The position numbers and the translations under genes were made by a program. Shown piece after piece: positions 2,292 through 13,118 of a DNA stretch of 22,407 bases. Source of the stretch: Saccoglossus kowalevskii (taxonomy: Eukaryota > Hemichordata > Enteropneusta > Harrimaniidae); NCBI RefSeq assembly GCF_000003605.2, contig NW_003116454.1, forward strand, positions 585,715 through 608,121, written 5' to 3'. A model generated the notes under the pieces. That model searched no databases. It saw only the letters and a list, made by a program, of their open reading frames with translations, and was not told the origin of the DNA. The stretch's first letter is position 1. Each line of letters opens with the position of its first letter.

Positions 2292-2395
2292 CTAAATGAC
2301 AGTTGTAAGGCCCTGACTGTCCGTATTATTGGTAGCATTCAAAGTAATATTCACTATCACTGGAATAATGTCCATGTTTTCCTGATAAAGAATGC
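2292..2395 (-). CDS. SLC28-like gene, last coding exon with stop codon
   Basis: The acceptor attatcaattgtag ends at 2396. Two bases complete Gly602, then 33 codons begin ILYQENMD and a TAG stop lies at 2294-2292. CNT3 continues GIL after CIAG at this point, so the join is supported by homology as well as phase. The tail carries three overlapping or adjacent N-glycosylation sequons (NIT 617, NAT 621, NNT 624), consistent with the extracellular glycosylated C-terminus of CNTs. It is much shorter than the tail of human CNT3. Confidence 0.88.
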
Positions 2396-5300
2396 CTACA
2401 ATTGATAATATAAACAAAATGTTATTAGCAGGTTACAAAGGTAAAAATCAATATTTTTAGCTTTTTCGCTAGCACGCTTAGACCGATTTTATTCAAATTT
2501 GGAATGAATATCATCCAACATCACCGACATACATCAGTTATTTTCAGATTTAATTTTATTTTAAAATGACTGACTAGTAGCATTTGTGATTTTATTTTCA
2601 TGTGTCTTGGTCCATTTATCTATATTAGTTTGATTTATTTTGTACAGAATAAGCACAAAACACAACATAATAATTTGTATATGCACACTTGCTTCAACTT
2701 GTTTCACAGGTGTACCTGGCCCTGTTGTCAGCACTACTAAACAAGGCTAACGCAATAGGAGTTGTATTTGACCATTTGCAAATGCCACAAATCAGACCCA
2801 GATGAACAGACTTCACAGATGGGGGCACGACAGTAGGGTGATGTTGTTAATCGTGATGCCCAATTGCTGAATTTATTTTTGACGCTCAACATGGATCACT
2901 CTTCGCGTGTTGACAGAGCCCGTGGCACTGAAAGAACCATCACTACATATTTGGACATGATTCAGTAGATGTACCAAATCTAGAATGTGCGAATTGACGA
3001 TATATTTGACATAACAGAGCGCCCCATCGCCTGAGGATGGATTCTCTAAAAAAATCGACTATTGTAAGTACTAATATTCATTCATCAATATGTATTTCCG
3101 TCTTTCCTTACCTGCTATGCAAGCTGTCATAAAGTTGGCACAATTCCCGGCAATAAGTGCCCTGACAACGATGGCATTGATATCGTTCTTGCGTTCAGGA
3201 CAAATGCTTATGAGCGTCCCCAATGCAATACCAATACCAGCCAGATGAGAATGCCCACACATAGCATATGTAGCGATGAGTTCAGAACGAGGCTATAAAG
3301 GCATAGTACATGTTATGTTAAATAATGGAGAAGATACAGGTAAACGTATGCATTTACAACTCGTGTTGATCCATTGTTATATCCTACTATGGGCTGGTCA
3401 GATGGCAGTCCTCCGCCGACCTGATTTCTAAGAAATAGTAGTTTATAAATAAATAAACGCTGCTCGGACTGATAAATATGATATATAGAAGAAAGTGTAC
3501 ACTTTCTTCTATGCTATCGATAAAGAGCCATTGCTCGAAACGTCTAGCTATTGTCAATAGTTATTTAGGACTACGATTACCAAATATTATCTTCTATATA
3601 TCTGATTTCTGAGAAGGTGCATTGATAACCCAGGCGCATAAATTATTACCTATATGTGGTAAACATTTCATTGAAAAAGAGAGTTCTTCTTTTTTTTAAA
3701 CATAGCATTAGCTTACATTAGATGAGGTAATTTCCAATTTAAAAATCACTAGTATGCGATAAAATGTTTTGTTATTTGTCTTACGTCTAGCTCGGTATCA
3801 ACAGCGCTGTCAGAAACATGTGAATTTTCAAACGTATGAATGTAAATATCCCCCACCAAATGCTGTCCATTTTACAACAACTTACCGATATTGTCGGAGT
3901 CAACCCAAGATCACGGTTTGCTACTATGACAGAAAGTTTATCATATGACACCAATACACTGGTAAAGATCTTAATGCCGATGAGTTCAGCCACGATAGCA
4001 CAGTCTTCCCAGTCAACTCCCATTACAAACGCTAGTGGTATGAACACCCATGAGCAAATTACCTAGAATACACATTTAAGTTAATTTAAGTTATGTACTA
4101 CATACATACTACCATTGTTTTTTATGGAAAATCAGAAAAGTATTAATAAGAATTTCATCTTACAGTCAAATCGAAAATAATGAATTGCCTATAGAATCTC
4201 TTCAGTGGCAACTTTTACATTCAGTGACCTCTTTTATGAGTTCCTGCCTTTCAATCACTAAACAATTACTTGCACAATTTTGTTGCCAATGGTTCAATTG
4301 TTACTACATGGTGTGCAGTACATTTTGAAATATATTCAATTTGTAGTCACACAGATCAAAGGTTACACTGGTTCATTTGAATATTTATAAAATTGTGGGA
4401 GCATCATAATCATTTGTATTCCCACTCAAAGGTTTTGCATTTCTTCTGTCTGAAATGGACGTAATTTTATTCTTTCCAGTTTTCTAGTTGTAAATTTAGT
4501 TTACCATTATTACATCGCTGAACCTCACGTTCCCTTTACCTATACAAATCTGAGATTAACACAACTCACTATTATCGGCGGTGAAAATCTTTATCAGAGA
4601 CTCTGCTTTATGAAACAAACCCTTAAGGGCACAGACAATAACCTAATGTTTATAGTTTGACGCGTTCTATTTTTTCTTGACTCAATGGTTGGCTTGTACC
4701 AGTAATAAATTCGACAATGAACTAGTACTAACCTCATAGCTCAGCTCTGGATAACCCACCATTCCACCTGCCCATGACAAAACAGCATTCAAAAATGCGA
4801 GTATGGCCAGAAACACAATGAAATTACAAGCAATGTTGACAAGAAGCGTGACTGCGGCCAATCCACCACTCGAAATAGCGTCGAGCACATTCTGGTGTTT
4901 TCTGTGATGTGAACAAATATAGTCTTGTCATAAGAGTTATGTATATATAATATGAAGAAAAGAACTTAATTTATTGATAATTGACAGTAAGTCGGCAAGT
5001 AAAGCATTCATGTACATGAGTGTTCAGTTCACTATTTTCATACTTTATATTTCTACAAAACTGTAAGGTATGTAAAGCAAAGCATGCAATACAGGTGTAG
5101 ATAAGTCATTTGTATATAGCGCTCGTGTTTCATTTATTTGTAGCATTATTTATGGCAGAAAATTGTTACTCATAACTACAATCTCTTAATGAGACAGGTA
5201 ATTCAAATCAAATGTTCATATGTGTGTCAAAAATATGATATCAAAACGGAGTCTGGAAAACATGCAGAATTTTATGTCAAATTTAATAATGTTTCTATGA

Positions 5301-8300
5301 AGCATCTTAAACGGAAAAAAGTTCGGAAAAAAAAATTCTCTAAAAAACCTTGGCTAACTAGAGGACTATTGAAGTCAATCATCACAAAACACAAATTATT
5401 TATTAAAATGAAAAATAACCCTAAAGATCTCCAAAATGCACACGAATATAAACAATATAGAAACGTCTTGACTAAGTTGCTAAAGTCGGCTAGAAAAGAC
5501 TTATTACTCAAATAAATTTGTTGTTACCCGCGGGAACACAAATAAAACATGGCAGGTTATAAATGAGGTTCTAAATAAAACAAAAACAAAATCAGCCCCC
5601 CATGAATTAAATTCATCCAACGACAAACTCTTAACGAAAAGTTCTGATATCGGTGAAGAATTTAATAAATATTTCACAAATATTGGTCCGAGCCTTGCCG
5701 CTAGTGTAACGAACACGTGTGACTTTCGACAATATCTCACCGGGAGTCAAATAAACTCGTTATTTTTCCACCCAGTAAGTGAGTCCGAAGTTTTCAATCA
5801 AATCAAATCCCTTAATCCCAATAAATCAGCAGGACATGACAAAATACACCCTAAAACATTAATTCATTCAGCTAAAATTATTGCCCGACCCATTGCTCAC
5901 ATTATCAATTGTTCGTTAAGCCAAGGTGTTTTCCTGATGACTTAAAAATTGCTAAGATAACACCCATTTACAAAAAAGGTACCCAGTACCCAGTAACTAT
6001 CGCCCTATTTCAATCCTACAAATCCTTAGCAAAATATTTGAATCGATTGTGAATAAACAATTTATAAGTTTCCTTGAAAAAAATCACATACTTTCAAACA
6101 CGCAATTTGGTTTTCGCAAAAAAAAATAACACTAAACTCGCCCTAGCTGACCTGGTCACCAACATCGCAGATAATATGGACACTGGCTGCATTACTTTCG
6201 GAATTTTTATTGACCTGAAAAAAGCATTTGATACAATTAATCACAAAATCTTATTCCACAAACTTGAACATTATGATATCAGAGGTCTTCCGTTACAATG
6301 GTTTGAAAACTACCTTTACAATCAGTCAATATTGATAACACACTATCTTCTTTCAAAGAAATAAAGTGTGGTGTTCCACAAGGATCGATTTTAGGCCCTA
6401 TTTTATTTCTAGTTTATATCAATGATATTACAAATTCCAGCGATGTTTTCGATTTTTGTCTTTTTGCAGACGACATAACTCTGTTTAAATCTGTCAAGGA
6501 CAACACAATCTATTTCTCGGACATTAAAGACGAATTCCAGAAAGTCTGTGAATGGTGTAATGCTAACCAACTAACTATTAACAGAAAACAAACTACATGA
6601 TTATAAAGTCACCACAAAAAACAGTTACTACAGAGGGCAGTTTGATCATTAATGGGTCACCAATAGAGGGCGTTCGTTCCACAAAGTATTTAGGCGTGAC
6701 AATTGACTGTAATTTAACGTGGAAACCTCATATAGATTTTCTAACTAAATTAATCTCCAGGAAAGTGGGTATTATCTCACAGATTCGACATTATGTTCCA
6801 AGATCAATTCTTCTTCTTCTGTATAATTCTTTAATATTTCCCCATATTTCTTACTGTTTAGAGATTTGGGGAAACACATACTCGTCTTTCCTTGAACCAA
6901 TCTTGCGCCTCCAGAAAAAAGTCGTACGTCTCATCACATTCTCCGACATGCATGCTCACACTGCCCCCTTGTTTAAAAAACTTGGAATATTAGATGTTTA
7001 CAAGTTATGTAAACTTCAAACATGTCTATTTGTTTTTGATGTAAAAAATTGTCGTTTTGCACATACAATAAATCATTATGCAACACGTTTAGCCATGGCT
7101 GATAGTTTTTATATCCCCAAAAGGAATCTAATTTTATGCCAAAAAACAATTAAATTTACTGCAACACGCCATTGGAATTCCCTTCCTAGCACAATCAAAA
7201 ATGAAATGAACAGACACACATTTAAATTCAAATTAAAAAATGCTCTCCTAAGTCAGTGAAACGACGAAATGTCTACTATAATTTCATTTCATATGTTTTG
7301 TTTTGTTTTTTGTATATATATATATTTGTTTATTGTTACTATTCTAACTTTAGATGATTACGTTGTTCATTTTCTTTCATCTCTTTTGTTAATTTAAGAT
7401 TTTGAATCTATTCAATTATTTAAATGTACAACTATGTACCTGTATATGACTTATTAATATTATTATTTATTGTTTATTTTGTTCATTCTTTATAAGGGTC
7501 ATGGACTAGACTAGTTCCAGGGAACTATTTCCATGATCCTCACTATAAACAATTTATAAAAATATCTAAAAAAATACATATATCTAAAATTCAAATTATA
7601 GATTTATTTATTTAATTTTATTTACTCATCTGTTTATATATCACATTTATTTGAATATTATTATATGTATATATGTTTATAGTGAAATAAACTTCATTCA
7701 TTCATTCATTCATTCATGTGACCAGATAATTCAGCGTAGGCCATGAATATTATACGATTGCTACTGTTGTAAAAATTATCCAGTCACTTACGGTATACTT
7801 GTTTGAATGGATATGTTGTCTGATGGTGATTTCTCTGTTTCTGGATAAAACAGCTTAGATATAGCTAAAGATGCAGGTGCTGACATAACTGAGGCAGTGA
7901 TTAGGTATGAAGGACTGAGGCCAAATGCAATAGCAGCACCCATGACACTTCCAGAGATAGTCGCATACCCTCCAGTCGCCACAGCATGAATTTCAGATAC
8001 CGACATTTTCTTTATGTACGGTGCTACCATGAGAGGTGCCTCTCCCTAAAAAAAATATTTTTAGTAATAATGACTTAGTATCCTGTATGCAACATATTTT
8101 AATGCAAATATTTTAATGCAACATATTAATTATTTGTCTATTAAAATTGTGGAAACAAACACGGGTTTTATTTTGAGTGAGGTTTAAAATATTCCATTGG
8201 CTATATTTAATTTCATTGGAATTTTTAGCAAAAATTTTACCTCTTACATTTCCTCAAAGCTACAACATCTTTACAATACATAAATACATGGACAATGGCT

Positions 8301-11300
8301 ATAACATGGATATATAATTGAAATTTCTTGTATTTGGATACTAACTCCACTGAGAAAGATGTTCCCAGTCGCGTTTATAGATTCCGTCGCTGATGATCCC
8401 ATTGTGAACTGTAGGAACCACGCCAGTTTACTGATAACCACCTGCATTATGCCCACGTGGTACAACAATGCAACCATGGAACTTAGGAACAGCATGATGG
8501 GTAGTATCTTGGACAAAAAAAAACAAAACAATGGACGTGACAACGCCATCTGTAGATTTCTACCGAATTCGTTTATTTGAATGATCTTCCTTTGAATTGT
8601 TTGTTAAAGCGTGGTTTGTTGTATCATTATTCGAGTTGCCGCTTGTTGAAAGTTTCTAGTGTTACATACAATCTTGATGACGTTAACTTCATCGACAAAC
8701 TTTCAAATCAGAGAAAGTCAACCTAATACCGCTACTGACCTTGAAGGCAAATCTGTGGATATAATACTGCGGTCCAAATACGAACGTTGTCCCAGCGTCT
8801 GTGTAATCGAGGAATACACGAATTTCTTTTCCAAGGAAATTAAAAGCGTCAAATCCCCACTGAGTGCGTAAGATGATTATAGCCAGACAAAACTGGATCA
8901 CCAGTCCCCATATCACTGGCCGCCACCAAATCTACAATTAAAGTGTATGATGTGTGGTTAATTTCGTAATTTGTTGAATGAAATAAACAAACAATAATAT
9001 GCCTTATTTAGCATAAAGCATTGTTATGACGTCAATATTACGTATATCACAAGTGATCAGTTGCTACGTTAACGTTTGAGATTTCGGCACGTGCCGACAT
9101 TGTTAATCATTCGTATTTGCAGAGGGTCACATCAGTTTCGTTCAAGTTAGTCGGGATCCAATCGGAAACAACTCGAATCGTGTCAAATTCGCGCCCTATT
9201 CGTTGATCTGTTATTTGACCCAATCATGAAAAGCATTACGCATGTGATGATAATATTAATTGCTATACTAGTACTTAAATTATATCCATTTGCTATTATG
9301 GTATAATTCATTACGTCAAATATATATTGTTATTCAATACGTCAAAGGAAGATTCGAAAAACAGTTATTTTTAACGTCGCTGTAGCATTATAAGAAAAAC
9401 GAGTTGCAGCCTATACACATGCGTCACATACAACGTTGTGCATTTCATTTCTTTTCAACCATTAGTGTGGACTGTCGACAGTCCCCGAGCCTATTGTTTC
9501 CAGGAATTTCACGCGAGGGAATTTAGTCCCGAGAGATTGTCCCCGTCTACAGGCTTCTAGTTGATATGAATAGTTGATGCAGACGTCACGAAATAAATGA
9601 TATTAACATAATGCATGCAAACTGATTCTTAATGACCTCTTAAATGCGTTGGTTGTTCACGTCAAGATTTGTTTGTGACATCAAAAACTGCTGTGGAAAG
9701 TGTCGTGACCGCGTATAGTACAGTAAAAACAAGCTTCGCATAATTCGTGGGCGATCCTAGTAGCCGGCGACCCCTGACCCTTTTCACGATTGGCCACGAT
9801 AAAATGATAGACATCTGCGCGACTATTCATTTGCATATGAAAGTACCCGGATCTGGTAAGAAATCTTACCAGTGAATTGCAGCGACAGTCGTTCGTGCCT
9901 AACAGCACTTCATACTTCCTGCCCGGCGTTGGCAATTTATTCACGCCTATTACATTTATACAAAATATGTATTAATAATAACAGATTAATATTAGGTACG
10001 ACCGACTGTCGACAGTCTACCGTTAGTGCAGCATCTGAACACATCTAGCTGCACTTCCCTAAATCGTCATGTCATACTAGTAGGAATCAGTATACGTTCT
10101 CTACAATTCACCACAGAGGCGTGATTCCGGTTCGTGTCAATTGTCCAGGCAGTACATTTCGGTACGTGCCGCGTTTCGGTCCCGAGCATCGATCGGGACG
10201 TGATCGAGTTTTTTTCAGCACGTGCCGAGATCTCAAATGTGAACGGTACTTGTATCAAGGCAACAGCAGTGTAGTTTTGTAGTCCTTTGTTATTTAGTTT
10301 ATACTAAATATCAAAATTGTATCTCAGTGAAAATTACATAGGATGATTTGATAGTTTTTCGTTCACATATATATACCTTAGAGGGATGCTTGGAAAATAT
10401 GAAACAGAATAAAATGATGGTAACTAGTCCGACTAGTGACAGCATATTTGTTGGATTCTTGGACGTGTCTACTGCAATCCAAATTATAAGTAGCACTAAC
10501 ACGACAATACCGCTCAACCTGCGAATGAGAACAAACTGATTTGTTACAAGTCATCGCTACTTTAGACGATCCGTCCCGGTGTTGTCACTTAGATAACACT
10601 AGGACAATGGTCTGGGGCAGGTCAGTGTGCACAATACACCAAAGACGACCGAGGAAAACCTTTCTTTCCGATTTCTGCTATAATACTGTACACATTAATG
10701 AAAAATTTGAAAAAGAAAAAGACTGGTCACTGCACCATCTTTTTAAACAGAATTGTTGTTTAGTCTTACATATGGTTTGTATTTGGGTTTTCCATTAATA
10801 TTTTAAAAATAAAATGGAGTTGCTTTACCTTTATCGTACAAACAAATTGTTCAAGAATACAAACCTCTCAACCGACGCTAATTTGAGTCAACTGACACAG
10901 GACACACGTGACGCATTGCAGAAGCTACTCACCATCTCACTATGTTGTAATGTTGTATGATGAACCGTCTGATTGGCTTTATACATACACGGTACACGTT
11001 GTCACCGCAATGGTCTCTGATAAGAGCGTACATAACACAACATATCACGCAGCTTGTCAACACGACCAGTGACATGGCATTGTTTATATCATATTTCAGG
11101 GCAACCACGAAATAAACCACGAACATTGCGAGGAGGAGAACCTTTGTAGTTAACCACAGACAACGTCTGTATTTTGTGAACCACTTGTGTAGTGTGTCCT
11201 GGATCCTTTCTATTCCCTGGGGAAAAGGTGAGGGAAAAATTATTAAGGAATCTGCACGCCATAACTGTCCGTCAACCGATTCGATCAATGATTGATAACT

Positions 11301-13118
11301 TTGTGTATTTGTTACATTGTTTATGTAACTGTGTTTGATATTGTATTTTTGAAAAAAAAATATTTCTTGCTGTTAAATAAAAAAAAATCACAGAAGCATT
11401 TCTTCATCGCACGAATATAGATATGTTTGCGACCAATACATTTTGTATGGAATTCATACTGCTGTTTTTATAAAGATACAGAACTAAATAAAATAATTAA
11501 ACAAATATTTTTATCTGTAGTAGCATTGTATGTCCGTGGATTTGATTTAAATGCGCACCCTAGTACAACAGTTTTCGGCTGGCCCATCGTCAAGCCTTTC
11601 TTCAAGCTCGAGTTCCATGTTCTCCATGACGTTCTCTATGTGTGCTCCAGTGTCGTTGATGCGTGTATCGGTTTTGTGTCCTTCTTCCATACTACGAATG
11701 TCTCCATCAGGTTGGTTGATATCCTAAATTCAAATACATATTCAACAATGTAGCGCAATAATCAAATCATATCACTACGTGTATGAGGGGACTGACAATA
11801 CTAATATAATAATAACAGCAACGAAGCACCTATGTGGCATAAAATCGGCGTAGGAAGCAATGCCTTTTAAAACTATGGTCGTGATTAATTGTGTTTTCAT
11901 TTCTAGTAAAATATAATTGATCTCTAAGAACATTATTTTATGGGCGTATGACCACACATCAAAACACTATCATGCTTTCATTACCGACAGTCATTCACAG
12001 CACAAAGCTAGGTGGCGCAAATGTTATCAGAATGTATCACGTTATCATTGTGATAATTGGTACATGCTCCAATAGTTAAATTATACATATACTAGTATAA
12101 GCCACTGTTTTGACCTCCAGCTTATCTTTTTTTCCTATTTGTTAAGATTTTGTGGTCAAGTTTAGGTCATTTTGGCAAAAACGTCCTTTTAATCTAAATA
12201 GTGACCAACGTAAATCGTTTGCAGTTTAGTTTTCAACTGGCTGCTTAGCACTTCCGCCAAAACTATAATGTTTCCTATATGTGAGTACAATGTAAGCGCT
12301 TCTGTATCCCATGTAAGCTCCTTCTGTATGCTGTACTTGAAATCTAGCAATCAAAGTATAATATTAATAAGTCATTGGGAATGTCACAGCACCCTCTGCA
12401 ATGTCAACAATAATATGTCCCTTCTGATCAAGTGCATGTACCAGCTCTTCACTTGACTAATGACTCGGACTGCCTGACAATTTAACATTCATTGTAAATT
12501 ATAGTGCATTGTGGGGTTAGATATGTTAGGTTGTTGGAGAAGACGCGCTTTATAAGTGGTATTGAATTGAATTGTGCCAACTATATCAAAAATCCACATA
12601 CACATTCGTGAAAAATTATACTGCCTTTCTACCAAATCTGAATAAACCTATTGATCGTATATGAAAATGAACATAAATATGTTTTTTGATGAACAAAATG
12701 GCGCCAGTCGGCAAATTTAGTGAAAAACTGAAAGATAACTGATGTGCCTCAGTATCCAGCAATGCTAAGTTTGAACAGAATCGGCCAACACAGTCTGCAG
12801 AGTCTGCAGATAATGTTCGGCACATATAAAATGTTAGTTTTTAGGCTATTTTTGGGTCAAATATGGCCGGCAGTCGGCTTTTTGTATCTAAACAGAACAA
12901 ATTTGAGGCATATGTATACCATCATGCATTAACCATGTACAAAAGGTTAACAAAAATATATCAACTTCTAATTCGGACAGATGGGCCAAATCCATAAGGC
13001 CCTGGAATGAATATTAGGGGTGCACGTAACCCAGACTTACTTGACCGATTTGTACATTCGCATTTCCCTCTATCTGAGGCAAAACACCATATCTTTCACT
13101 TGTCTTCTTCATCTCCAT
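2292..13118 (-). CDS. SLC28/CNT-family concentrative nucleoside transporter-like protein, 11 coding exons, complete
   Basis: Coding exons in transcript order are 13118-13041, 11723-11559, 11216-10933, 10518-10377, 8931-8740, 8507-8346, 8045-7792, 4901-4733, 4062-3886, 3292-3112 and 2395-2292, giving 635 residues. Known vertebrate CNTs are about 650-690 residues, so this is near full length. Family members are multi-pass plasma-membrane symporters that drive nucleosides inward with sodium or protons. Visible family landmarks are FSKHP...WRPVIWG (about 216-236), LDYTDAG and FAFK (before 287), TGSS and GNIF (about 320-338), SAPASLA...PETEK (about 397-415), LIG.K (509-513) and RALIAG...FMTACIAG (about 580-602). 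The N-terminal 81 residues are acidic and poorly conserved, as usual for the cytosolic tail. The last 33 residues carry three N-glycosylation sequons. All introns are GT-AG, phases agree throughout, and no frame break is present. The substrate-site motifs are strongly altered, so substrate is uncertain. It is an SLC28 member by homology; I cannot assign it to CNT1, 2 or 3. Confidence 0.93.
2396..3111 (-). other. Last intron of the SLC28-like gene
   Basis: Runs from the GTAAGG donor at 3111 to the acceptor at 2396. A competing open frame inside it (2561-2721) is discussed under rejected items. No transposon was recognised. Confidence 0.75.
3112..3292 (-). CDS. SLC28-like gene, coding exon 10 (HP2 region, altered FANIGS motif)
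   Basis: Residues 542-601 plus one base of codon 602. The acceptor is ctttatag before 3292 and the donor is G|GTAAGG at 3111. [12 protein letters not shown] aligns to RSEIIATYALCG. The following substrate loop is HSHLAG (555-560), where CNTs have FANIGS. The exon ends with [20 protein letters not shown], the most conserved part of the C-terminal core. Confidence 0.97.
3480..3602. mobile_element. 123-bp palindromic, MITE-like element in an intron
   Basis: It is bounded by perfect 13-bp inverted ends (gatatatagaaga at 3480-3492, tcttctatatatc at 3590-3602). The left end runs into a perfect 28-bp palindrome at 3485-3512. The similar words ctgatttctaagaa (3421) and ctgatttctgagaa (3603) lie outside. 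It sits in the intron between coding exons 9 and 10. The internal gaaacgtc...ggactacg words recall retroelement 3' ends, but that resemblance is from memory only. Confidence 0.55.
3886..4062 (-). CDS. SLC28-like gene, coding exon 9 (core helix, altered NEFVAY motif)
   Basis: Fifty-nine codons (residues 483-541), phase 0 at both ends. The acceptor is gtattctag before 4062 and the donor is TCG|GTAAGT. It reads [20 protein letters not shown] and VAELIG, strongly CNT-like. The family signature (G/A)xKx3NEFVA(Y/M/F) appears here as [12 protein letters not shown] (residues 511-522): Gly, Lys, the second Val and Tyr are kept, but the Asn-Glu pair is Ser517-Val518. Confidence 0.97.
4063..4732 (-). 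other. Intron of the SLC28-like gene; nothing else seen
   Basis: Spans from the GTTAGT donor at 4732 to the gtattctag acceptor at 4063. It is AT-rich with no recognised element. Confidence 0.7.
4733..4901 (-). CDS. SLC28-like gene, coding exon 8
   Basis: Completes Pro426 and encodes residues 427-482. The acceptor is catcacag before 4901 and the donor is GAG|GTTAGT after 4733. The stretch [31 protein letters not shown] and then [16 protein letters not shown] aligns without gaps to the CNT segment NLLEA...LVANIAVNLIAFLALL...LSWFG. The 2.9 kb intron before it holds an antisense LINE. Confidence 0.97.
5189..7259 (+). pseudogene. Non-LTR retrotransposon reverse transcriptase, frameshifted (CR1/Jockey-like)
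   Basis: The linker between endonuclease and RT is recognisable first ([13 protein letters not shown], near 5340-5375). It is followed by RT blocks: [11 protein letters not shown] near 5815, [14 protein letters not shown] near 6000, [10 protein letters not shown] near 6205, [10 protein letters not shown] near 6370 and the catalytic FADD at 6463-6474. Then come [15 protein letters not shown] and the conserved C-terminal WNSLP in one open frame, 6597-7259. The reading frame breaks near 5500, 5932, 5985, 6118-6126, 6325 and 6595. The break near 5985 coincides with a tandem duplication of tacccag, and the one at 6118-6126 with a run of nine A. The endonuclease domain is absent, so the copy is 5'-truncated and inactive. 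It lies antisense to the host gene. Confidence 0.93.
5255..7717 (+). mobile_element. 5'-truncated LINE (CR1/Jockey superfamily-like) with (ATTC)n 3' tail, in an intron
   Basis: The element fills most of the intron between coding exons 7 and 8, in the opposite orientation to the gene. Its left edge is estimated from where the protein similarity starts and could be off by 100 bases. The right edge is the tandem ATTC tail at about 7694-7717, preceded by aataaa at 7685-7690. A short microsatellite tail instead of poly(A) is typical of CR1/L2-like elements. Between the stop at 7257-7259 and the tail lies a 440-base AT-rich 3' UTR with strong hairpins. No convincing target-site duplication was found. 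Confidence 0.88.
7495..7540 (+). other. Stem-loop in the LINE 3' UTR
   Basis: The outer arms agggtcatgga (7495-7505) and tccatgatcct (7530-7540) pair with one wobble. Inside, tagttcc (7512-7518) and ggaacta (7521-7527) pair perfectly around a two-base loop. LINE 3' hairpins are often the site at which their reverse transcriptase recognises the RNA. That role is inferred here. Confidence 0.6.
7792..8045 (-). CDS. SLC28-like gene, coding exon 7 (HP1 second half)
   Basis: Residues 342-425 plus two bases of codon 426. The acceptor is tttttttag before 8045 and the donor is CC|GTAAGT at 7791. It reads GEAPL, where the family has TE(A/S)PL, then SEIHAV...[13 protein letters not shown] and [22 protein letters not shown]. 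The catalytic-site Glu343 and the sodium-site Ser374 are kept. The Thr preceding the Glu is Gly342. Confidence 0.97.
8346..8507 (-). CDS. SLC28-like gene, coding exon 6 (start of transport core, HP1 first half)
   Basis: Fifty-four codons (residues 288-341), phase 0 at both ends and the same length as the matching stretch of human CNT3. The acceptor has a long T tract (tttttttttgtccaag) and the donor is GGA|GTTAGT. Conserved elements are [20 protein letters not shown] and GNIF (Asn336, the sodium-site Asn). The exon ends LSG where known proteins have V(S/G)Q, so the conserved nucleobase-contacting Gln is replaced by Gly341. Confidence 0.96.
8740..8931 (-). CDS. SLC28-like gene, coding exon 5
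   Basis: Sixty-four codons (residues 224-287), phase 0 at both ends. The acceptor is taattgtag before 8931 and the donor is AAG|GTCAGT after 8740. The sequence [14 protein letters not shown], then ILRT..GF..F..LG and [13 protein letters not shown], ending in FAFK, is a near-direct match to CNTs through the helix preceding the transport core. Confidence 0.96.
9027..9034. promoter_or_regulatory. Perfect CRE-type site TGACGTCA
   Basis: The eight-base palindrome TGACGTCA is the classic CREB/ATF site. It lies just outside the inverted-end block. A half-site gacgtcac occurs near 9581. Function is unproven. Confidence 0.3.
9084..9097. promoter_or_regulatory. 14-bp palindrome with CACGTG E-box core
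   Basis: TCGGCACGTGCCGA is perfectly self-complementary. Related words occur at 10157-10170 (ttcggtacgtgccg) and 10216-10228 (cagcacgtgccga). CACGTG is a bHLH factor site in animals; use as such here is inference. Confidence 0.35.
9469..9484. repeat. 16-bp palindrome, first copy of GACTGTCGACAGTC
   Basis: GGACTGTCGACAGTCC is perfectly self-complementary. Its 14-base core recurs exactly at 10004-10017, 535 bases away in the same intron. Confidence 0.8.
9853..9872. other. Perfect hairpin, 8-bp arms
   Basis: ctggtaag and cttaccag flank the loop aaat. It lies within the CpG-richer intron block. Confidence 0.7.
10004..10017. repeat. 14-bp palindrome, second copy of GACTGTCGACAGTC
   Basis: Exact repeat of the core of the palindrome at 9469-9484. 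Flanking sequences differ, so this is a shared motif rather than a longer duplication. Confidence 0.8.
10179..10199. other. Perfect hairpin, 7-bp arms
   Basis: gtcccga and tcgggac flank a seven-base loop. It is close to the right inverted end of the CpG-richer block. Confidence 0.6.
10377..10518 (-). CDS. SLC28-like gene, coding exon 4
   Basis: Completes Trp176 and encodes residues 177-223. The acceptor is cattcgcag before 10518 and the donor is AAG|GTATAT after 10377. It carries two hydrophobic helices and ends in IFSKHPSK, equivalent to the FSK(H/Y)PT(R/K) stretch of known CNTs. The 'WIAVDT' segment matches the family's 'WLxxDTA'. Confidence 0.92.
10933..11216 (-). CDS. SLC28-like gene, coding exon 3 (first two membrane segments)
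   Basis: Residues 82-175 plus two bases of codon 176. The acceptor is ttttccccag before 11216 and the donor is ATG|GTGAGT at 10932, phase 2. Hydrophobic segments lie at about 101-121 and 128-147, followed by a basic loop with KPIRRF. This matches the CNT N-terminal pair of helices, where vertebrate proteins have 'ACxLxFxRALxLFVIT'. An open frame continues upstream to 11288, but that part is intron read-through. Confidence 0.9.
11217..11558 (-). other. Intron between coding exons 2 and 3; nothing else seen
   Basis: Short A/T-rich intron with poly(A) tracts near 11352 and 11382. No element was recognised. Confidence 0.7.
11559..11723 (-). CDS. SLC28-like gene, coding exon 2 (acidic cytosolic tail)
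   Basis: Fifty-five codons (residues 27-81), phase 0 at both ends. The acceptor is gaatttag before 11723. The donor after 11559 is GTGCGC, the weakest in the gene. The peptide is rich in Glu and Asp, with a probable acidic helix near residues 55-72 ([17 protein letters not shown]). CNT N-termini are typically acidic and unconserved at this place. An alternative donor a few bases away cannot be excluded, but only this one keeps the frame with the next exon. Confidence 0.75.
11724..13040 (-). other. Intron between coding exons 1 and 2; nothing else seen
   Basis: 1.3 kb from the GTAAGT donor at 13040 to the acceptor at 11724. It contains a tandem tctgcagag pair near 12794 and scattered short open frames, none convincing. 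Confidence 0.65.

Follow-up and report, generated by a model that had tools for sequence, protein, structure and literature searches.

An intact SLC28/CNT gene of Saccoglossus kowalevskii with a largely replaced nucleoside-binding site and a retained sodium site

To our knowledge, the CNT family (SLC28) is regarded as nucleoside-specific. Animal CNTs carry three extra N-terminal membrane helices. Relatives of solved structure include human and bovine CNT3 (SLC28A3; 6ksw, 8tz1) and vcCNT, the NupC-family protein of Vibrio cholerae (3tij). In human CNT3 (hCNT3), the nucleoside is contacted by Q341, T342, E343, V375, E519, F563, N565 and S568, and the residues are identical in vcCNT; uridine binding is lost in E519A, E519Q and S568P and is weaker in E343A (about 1.19 mM; available portion of PMC7440666). 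Here, we describe a CNT gene in a stretch of 22,407 nucleotides from the genome of the hemichordate S. kowalevskii (assembly GCF_000003605.2, contig NW_003116454.1, positions 585,715 to 608,121 of the forward strand; hereafter the window). In this gene, six of the eight contacts are replaced, and a second intact copy shares most of the motif changes.

Read in the order given above, the contacts of the window protein are GGEVVHHG instead of QTEVEFNS. The glutamate (E343) and the valine (V375) survive, so that the Glu of QTE is not the sole remaining contact, as an earlier note on this DNA had held. That note correctly recognized SGGE, SVLVSY and GHSHLAG in place of the canonical motifs; its numbering is offset by +37, its product having a different N-terminus (635 residues against 598), and in the present model the motifs occupy residues 303-306, 480-485 and 517-523. 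The second copy (copy 2) lies about 73 kb from the window gene, in the opposite orientation. It is complete, with 595 residues (exons 1-4 in L034, 5-9 in L028 and 10 in L035, a run of N standing in intron 4), and 86.4% identical to the window gene over 595 aligned codons. Its contacts read IAEVVFHG, with five of eight replaced and three kept; its SVLVSY is identical to that of the window protein, and its GFSHLAG is one residue off GHSHLAG. Two new histidines had been taken as a sign of proton or metal involvement, or of a different polar substrate. Both are indeed found in the window protein, but the proposal is weakened by His518, which is private to this copy and is Phe in copy 2.

Sodium site 1 (N336, T370 and I371 of hCNT3) is kept in both copies. 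V339 is Leu in the window protein, as it is in 20 of the 87 bacterial and viral-contig sequences compared below. At the putative second sodium site of hCNT3, the window protein retains S396, C561 and T605 and shares with vcCNT an Ala for S369; C602 is Asn in both copies. Asn is also found there in vcCNT and in 42 of the 87 bacterial and viral-contig rows; C602 is therefore not required of every CNT. Asn336 had earlier been named as a conserved sodium-site residue together with Ser374; the former stands, whereas the latter is absent from the sodium ligands given in the available portion of PMC7440666, where T370 (Thr333 here) appears instead. The proposal that the transport machinery was kept while the nucleoside site was lost is supported by the retention of the fold and of sodium site 1. 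With Val at position 519, His at 565 and Gly at 568, a protein would not be expected, in view of the hCNT3 mutants, to bind ribose in the established manner.

The predicted product is a full-length animal CNT-fold protein that belongs to the CNT/SLC28 family by descent. Its 379-residue core exceeds the cut-offs of three Pfam models, Nucleos_tra2_N (PF01773, 67.7 bits), Gate (PF07670, 49 bits) and Nucleos_tra2_C (PF07662, 230.4 bits), and the full products pass NCBIfam TIGR00804 nupC (cut-off 442 bits; window 456.5, copy 2 462.4). Relatives of solved structure found with the core are bovine and human CNT3 and bacterial NupC-family proteins (nine distinct sequences). As claimed in the earlier note, the core aligns with known CNTs nearly free of gaps: E values are 1e-120 or better against bovine and human CNT3, with short loop gaps only, and 4.2e-73 against vcCNT. 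Bovine CNT3, 51% identical over the core, has the Pfam domains, sodium site 1, C561, S396 and T605 in common with the window protein, and the CNT3 proteins differ from it at six contacts and by having C602 and S369. The core of vcCNT (37% identity) likewise differs at six contacts; it shares the Glu and Val equivalents as well as sodium site 1, except for Thr in place of Ser. A tree of 23 rows, taken from the 96 that were aligned, groups the window gene and copy 2 together (100/100) inside an eight-row animal clade (100/100). The branching order among animal genes is not settled by this tree. The stem of the pair is long (0.82) and the end branches measure 0.092 (window) and 0.055 (copy 2). 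The grouping and the long stem therefore place the changes on a generally fast branch, before the local duplication.

The genome encodes at least seven CNT genes. A PF07662 search of it yielded 27 exon matches that group by position into seven genes, and the full-protein search (56 matches) added two partial copies, which lie near 554 kb and near 661 kb of the window's contig. Both partial copies consist of exons 1-2 of this subfamily (L126, L128), and the rest of the stretches fetched for them reads N (L125-L128). The one at 554 kb is interrupted by a stop in codon 2, and its frame breaks near residue 60; the one at 661 kb has no confident exon 1. For the remaining five CNT genes, exon translations were joined manually into cores, whose contacts are QTEVEFNS, QSETEYNS, QTEAEFNS, MTTVEFNS and MTAIEFNG. 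All five keep NEFVAY or NEYVAY, so that ordinary uptake of nucleosides does not have to depend on the window gene. N-terminal exons homologous to those of the window gene are found in paralogues. L029 (contig C1618) resembles the window gene in its core (54% identity, similar exon breaks) and differs in its fully canonical pocket, QTEVEFNS. The adjacent genes L032 and L033 (C2659) carry a further pocket change, of another type than that of the window pair. Their changes concern chiefly HP1, where MTT and MTA replace QTE with loss of the nucleobase-facing Gln and Glu, and L033 has in addition I for V375 and G for S568. Unlike the window pair, they retain NEFVAY and GFSN, with E519, F563 and N565, and they form a separate clade (100/100).

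How unusual the pocket is was judged against 94 rows: 80 bacterial sequences (the best 80 of 116 genome relatives confirmed after a pattern scan), seven confirmed relatives on viral contigs, the five paralogues, bovine CNT3 and vcCNT. Many rows are close kin (cyanobacteria, Vibrio, Balneola and others) and therefore do not count as independent events; animal rows that come from outside the genome, or are canonical within it, number two only (bovine CNT3 and L029). Position 519 is Glu in 93 rows and Asp in one, and N565 is kept in 93. No row loses both E519 and N565, whereas the window gene and copy 2 lose both, plus S568. Relative to QTEVEFNS, no contact is changed in 52 rows, one in 16, two in 16, three in three rows and four in seven. 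The largest departure in any row is thus four of eight, against six in the window protein and five in copy 2. No comparable variant was met in the titles and opening lines of abstracts of the PMC papers on SLC28/CNT that were surveyed, although one may already have been published.

These data bear on the possibility that the protein still carries nucleosides or nucleoside derivatives, with altered or low affinity, through a rebuilt site in which, for example, His520 would act with Glu306. The retained HP1 Glu, Val375 and sodium site 1 are compatible with such a transporter, as are the base-stacking Phe563 kept in copy 2 and the passing of the NupC family cut-off; furthermore, PMC4139061 reports that contacts to the base and to the ribose act additively and that compensation between them can occur. 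On the other hand, the whole ribose set (E519, N565, S568) is gone, position 519 is acidic in all 94 reference rows, and the substitutions E519Q, E519A and S568P at two of these positions kill binding in hCNT3 (PMC7440666, same portion). We thus consider this explanation rather unlikely. An origin of the motifs in bacteria or viruses was also considered and rejected among the relatives compared, none of the 87 bacterial and viral-contig rows, a limited sample, carrying them. When viral contigs were scanned with the exon 9 region alone, 19 stretches were obtained, none of them confirmed.

Other pocket variants were seen in the same rows. Five of the seven viral-contig CNT genes (L118, L120, L122, L123, L124), which putatively belong to phages or to flanking host DNA, share the odd pocket ASEIEFNV. 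HP1 Gln is replaced by Pro (GPTE) in 12 of the 87 rows, ten of them cyanobacterial (GPTE-type rows include L046, L049, L054, L056, L058, L059 and L062-L065), with NFANIGS in eight rows; this is a cyanobacterial CNT variant.

Clustering of the changes at the contacts is suggestive only. Against the three canonical rows (L029, bovine CNT3, vcCNT), both copies are changed at five of eight contacts and at 23 of 119 other conserved columns (p 0.013). As controls over the same 127 columns, L032 and L033 jointly have 26 changes (two of eight contacts), L030 has 20 (three of eight) and L031 has 26 (one of eight). When seven rows are used, the pair is changed at both of two contacts and at nine of 57 other columns (p 0.032). 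At the strictest level of the 94-row test, five of the nine changed columns (340, 519, 520, 522 and 565) fall inside the three motifs. Among columns conserved in at least 90% of rows, no reference row has more than one changed contact, against three in the window protein and two in copy 2.

The gene occupies positions 11690-2292 of the minus strand and has ten exons, called from splice signals and reading frames. All introns are GT-AG, the phases fit and no frame break interrupts the 598 codons; the gene is intact, as first reported. The span given at that time, 3112-8507, covers only exons 5 to 9. Exon 1 (11559..11690) encodes residues 1-44 from the Met start, with start and donor conserved in copy 2; exon 2 (10933..11216) encodes residues 45-138/139 and exon 3 (10377..10518) extends the N-terminal region up to residue 186. 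The Nucleos_tra2_N domain lies in exon 4 (8740..8931, residues 187-250). Exon 5 (8346..8507), in the Gate domain and HP1, contains the sodium-site Asn299 (N336 of hCNT3) and ends with NIFLSG, the first half of SGGE; exon 6 (7792..8045) starts with GEAPLM, the second half, and contains Thr333 and Ile334 of sodium site 1 and Val338 (V375). Exon 7 (4733..4901) belongs to the Nucleos_tra2_C domain. SVLVSY, with Val481 for E519, is in exon 8 (3886..4062), and GHSHLAG, with His518, His520 and Gly523 for F563, N565 and S568, is in exon 9 (3112..3292). Exon 10 (2292..2395) provides the C-terminal tail and the stop and has a homologous exon in copy 2, where the MEEG start and all ten exons are found.

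The location of the QTE position at an exon junction raises the question of a gene-model artefact, in which canonical motifs would reside on other exons. In copy 2, the same boundary separates the two halves of SIAE, a replacement of the same kind, and the other two motifs lie inside exons. When canonical-type cores from L029, L030, L033 and bovine CNT3 were used in tblastn, every core exon was hit a single time and neither locus showed an alternative exon. A splice artefact or mutually exclusive canonical exons are thus rejected for these loci, and a gene-model artefact is highly improbable.

The pair is maintained by purifying selection. Comparison of the window gene with copy 2 by the Nei-Gojobori method gave dN 0.071 and dS 0.278, a ratio of 0.256 (0.192-0.342 from 1000 bootstraps, 595 codons). 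This is in line with the purifying selection expected of a clade sharing the motifs, the clade being two genes of one genome. By region, dN/dS is 0.215 in the core, 0.248 for residues 45-186 and 0.44 in the first exon and tail; purely intronic aligned stretches are 68-78% identical, comparable with synonymous sites. Decay of the window copy alone could be suspected from its private His518, its longer end branch and the broken partial copy at 554 kb, which shows that decay occurs in the cluster. But both copies are intact, most motif changes are common to them and the pair's ratio is low; decay restricted to this copy is largely rejected for the shared changes, and we regard a pseudogene as most improbable. 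A low dN/dS indicates constraint and not transport. The protein could be a maintained but transport-dead pseudotransporter, for instance a regulatory or dominant subunit within CNT trimers (CNTs are trimers; available portion of PMC7440666), or a sodium leak. The loss of residues essential for nucleoside binding would fit this view. It is nevertheless doubtful, as N336, T370 and I371, kept in both copies, would be needless in a dead protein.

Altogether, the retention of the fold and of sodium site 1, under purifying selection, makes a working CNT-fold transporter for another solute the best explanation. We lean slightly towards a sodium-coupled elevator moving a substrate other than a ribonucleoside. 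Judging from the predicted pocket, the substrate is probably not a ribonucleoside, and a non-nucleoside ligand, as envisaged in the earlier note, is plausible. Most likely, the protein would be a trimer working as a sodium-coupled elevator, as hCNT3 and vcCNT do. It can be proposed that, before the duplication, the ancestor replaced the residues that bind ribose (E519 by Val, N565 by His, S568 by Gly) as well as the Gln-Thr of HP1 that binds the nucleobase, the latter by small or hydrophobic residues, while HP1 Glu343, Val375 and sodium site 1 were retained, and that both daughter copies were then kept under purifying selection. Transport would persist, driven by sodium, the substrate being a small solute without a ribose diol. 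With one carboxylate lost and one histidine gained, the pocket would be less negative, and a neutral or anionic solute is therefore a first guess, the kind of solute being a guess as well.

Several points weigh against this interpretation. First, hCNT3 N565A still binds uridine (about 280 uM; same portion of PMC7440666), so that not every change need matter alone. Second, the enrichment of changes at contacts is not significant against the 94 rows (3/6 versus 15/87, p 0.084), nor at further levels of that set (2/4 versus 8/62, p 0.11; 2/4 versus 7/39, p 0.19). Third, as the length of its stem indicates, the whole protein evolved fast. Finally, the dN/dS value averages both copies and is no proof of constraint on each. 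Three of the eight contacts, compared with 78 of the 587 other sites, differ between the copies (p 0.08), a difference that may point to diversification or to weak constraint on the pocket.

The contig that carries the window is 977 kb long and belongs to an assembly of 572 Mb (4830 contigs); the flanks fetched beyond the window (L036, L037) are almost all N. Intron 6 harbours a retrotransposon, probably non-LTR, at 5265..7716 of the plus strand, outside the gene product (RVT_1 match at 6074-6364, E 5e-7). No single open frame crosses it, and a TTCA repeat is found at its end (7693-7717). Copy 2 has an empty site (L028 5124/5125); the element was thus inserted after the duplication or lost in copy 2. 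A retroelement remnant is found at 1010-1468 on the minus strand (RT_RNaseH_2 at 1292-1468, E 7e-8; sub-cut-off matches in 1010-1288), and near it 1625-1834 has only a sub-cut-off match to FIGL1_N. Scanned against Rfam at gathering cut-offs, the window gave no match. Elsewhere in the assembly, on the mitochondrial contig C4830 (17,037 bases), COX1 is on one strand and the remaining protein genes recognized by eye are on the other.

For the family, the proposal is that a branch of animal CNTs abandoned nucleosides and uses the sodium elevator for another class of solute, with two intact and two partial local copies and a pocket still diversifying within the pair; on the present sequences we hold it to be evenly balanced. 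Since the TIGR00804 cut-off is passed, automatic annotation would label the gene a nucleoside transporter, and the case, if true, would caution against assigning function on the strength of family models. If true, a maintained branch that lacks the ribose site would also be a natural experiment on separating the parts of a sodium elevator from the choice of substrate, and the two natural variants, which differ at three of the eight contacts, make this reading directly testable.

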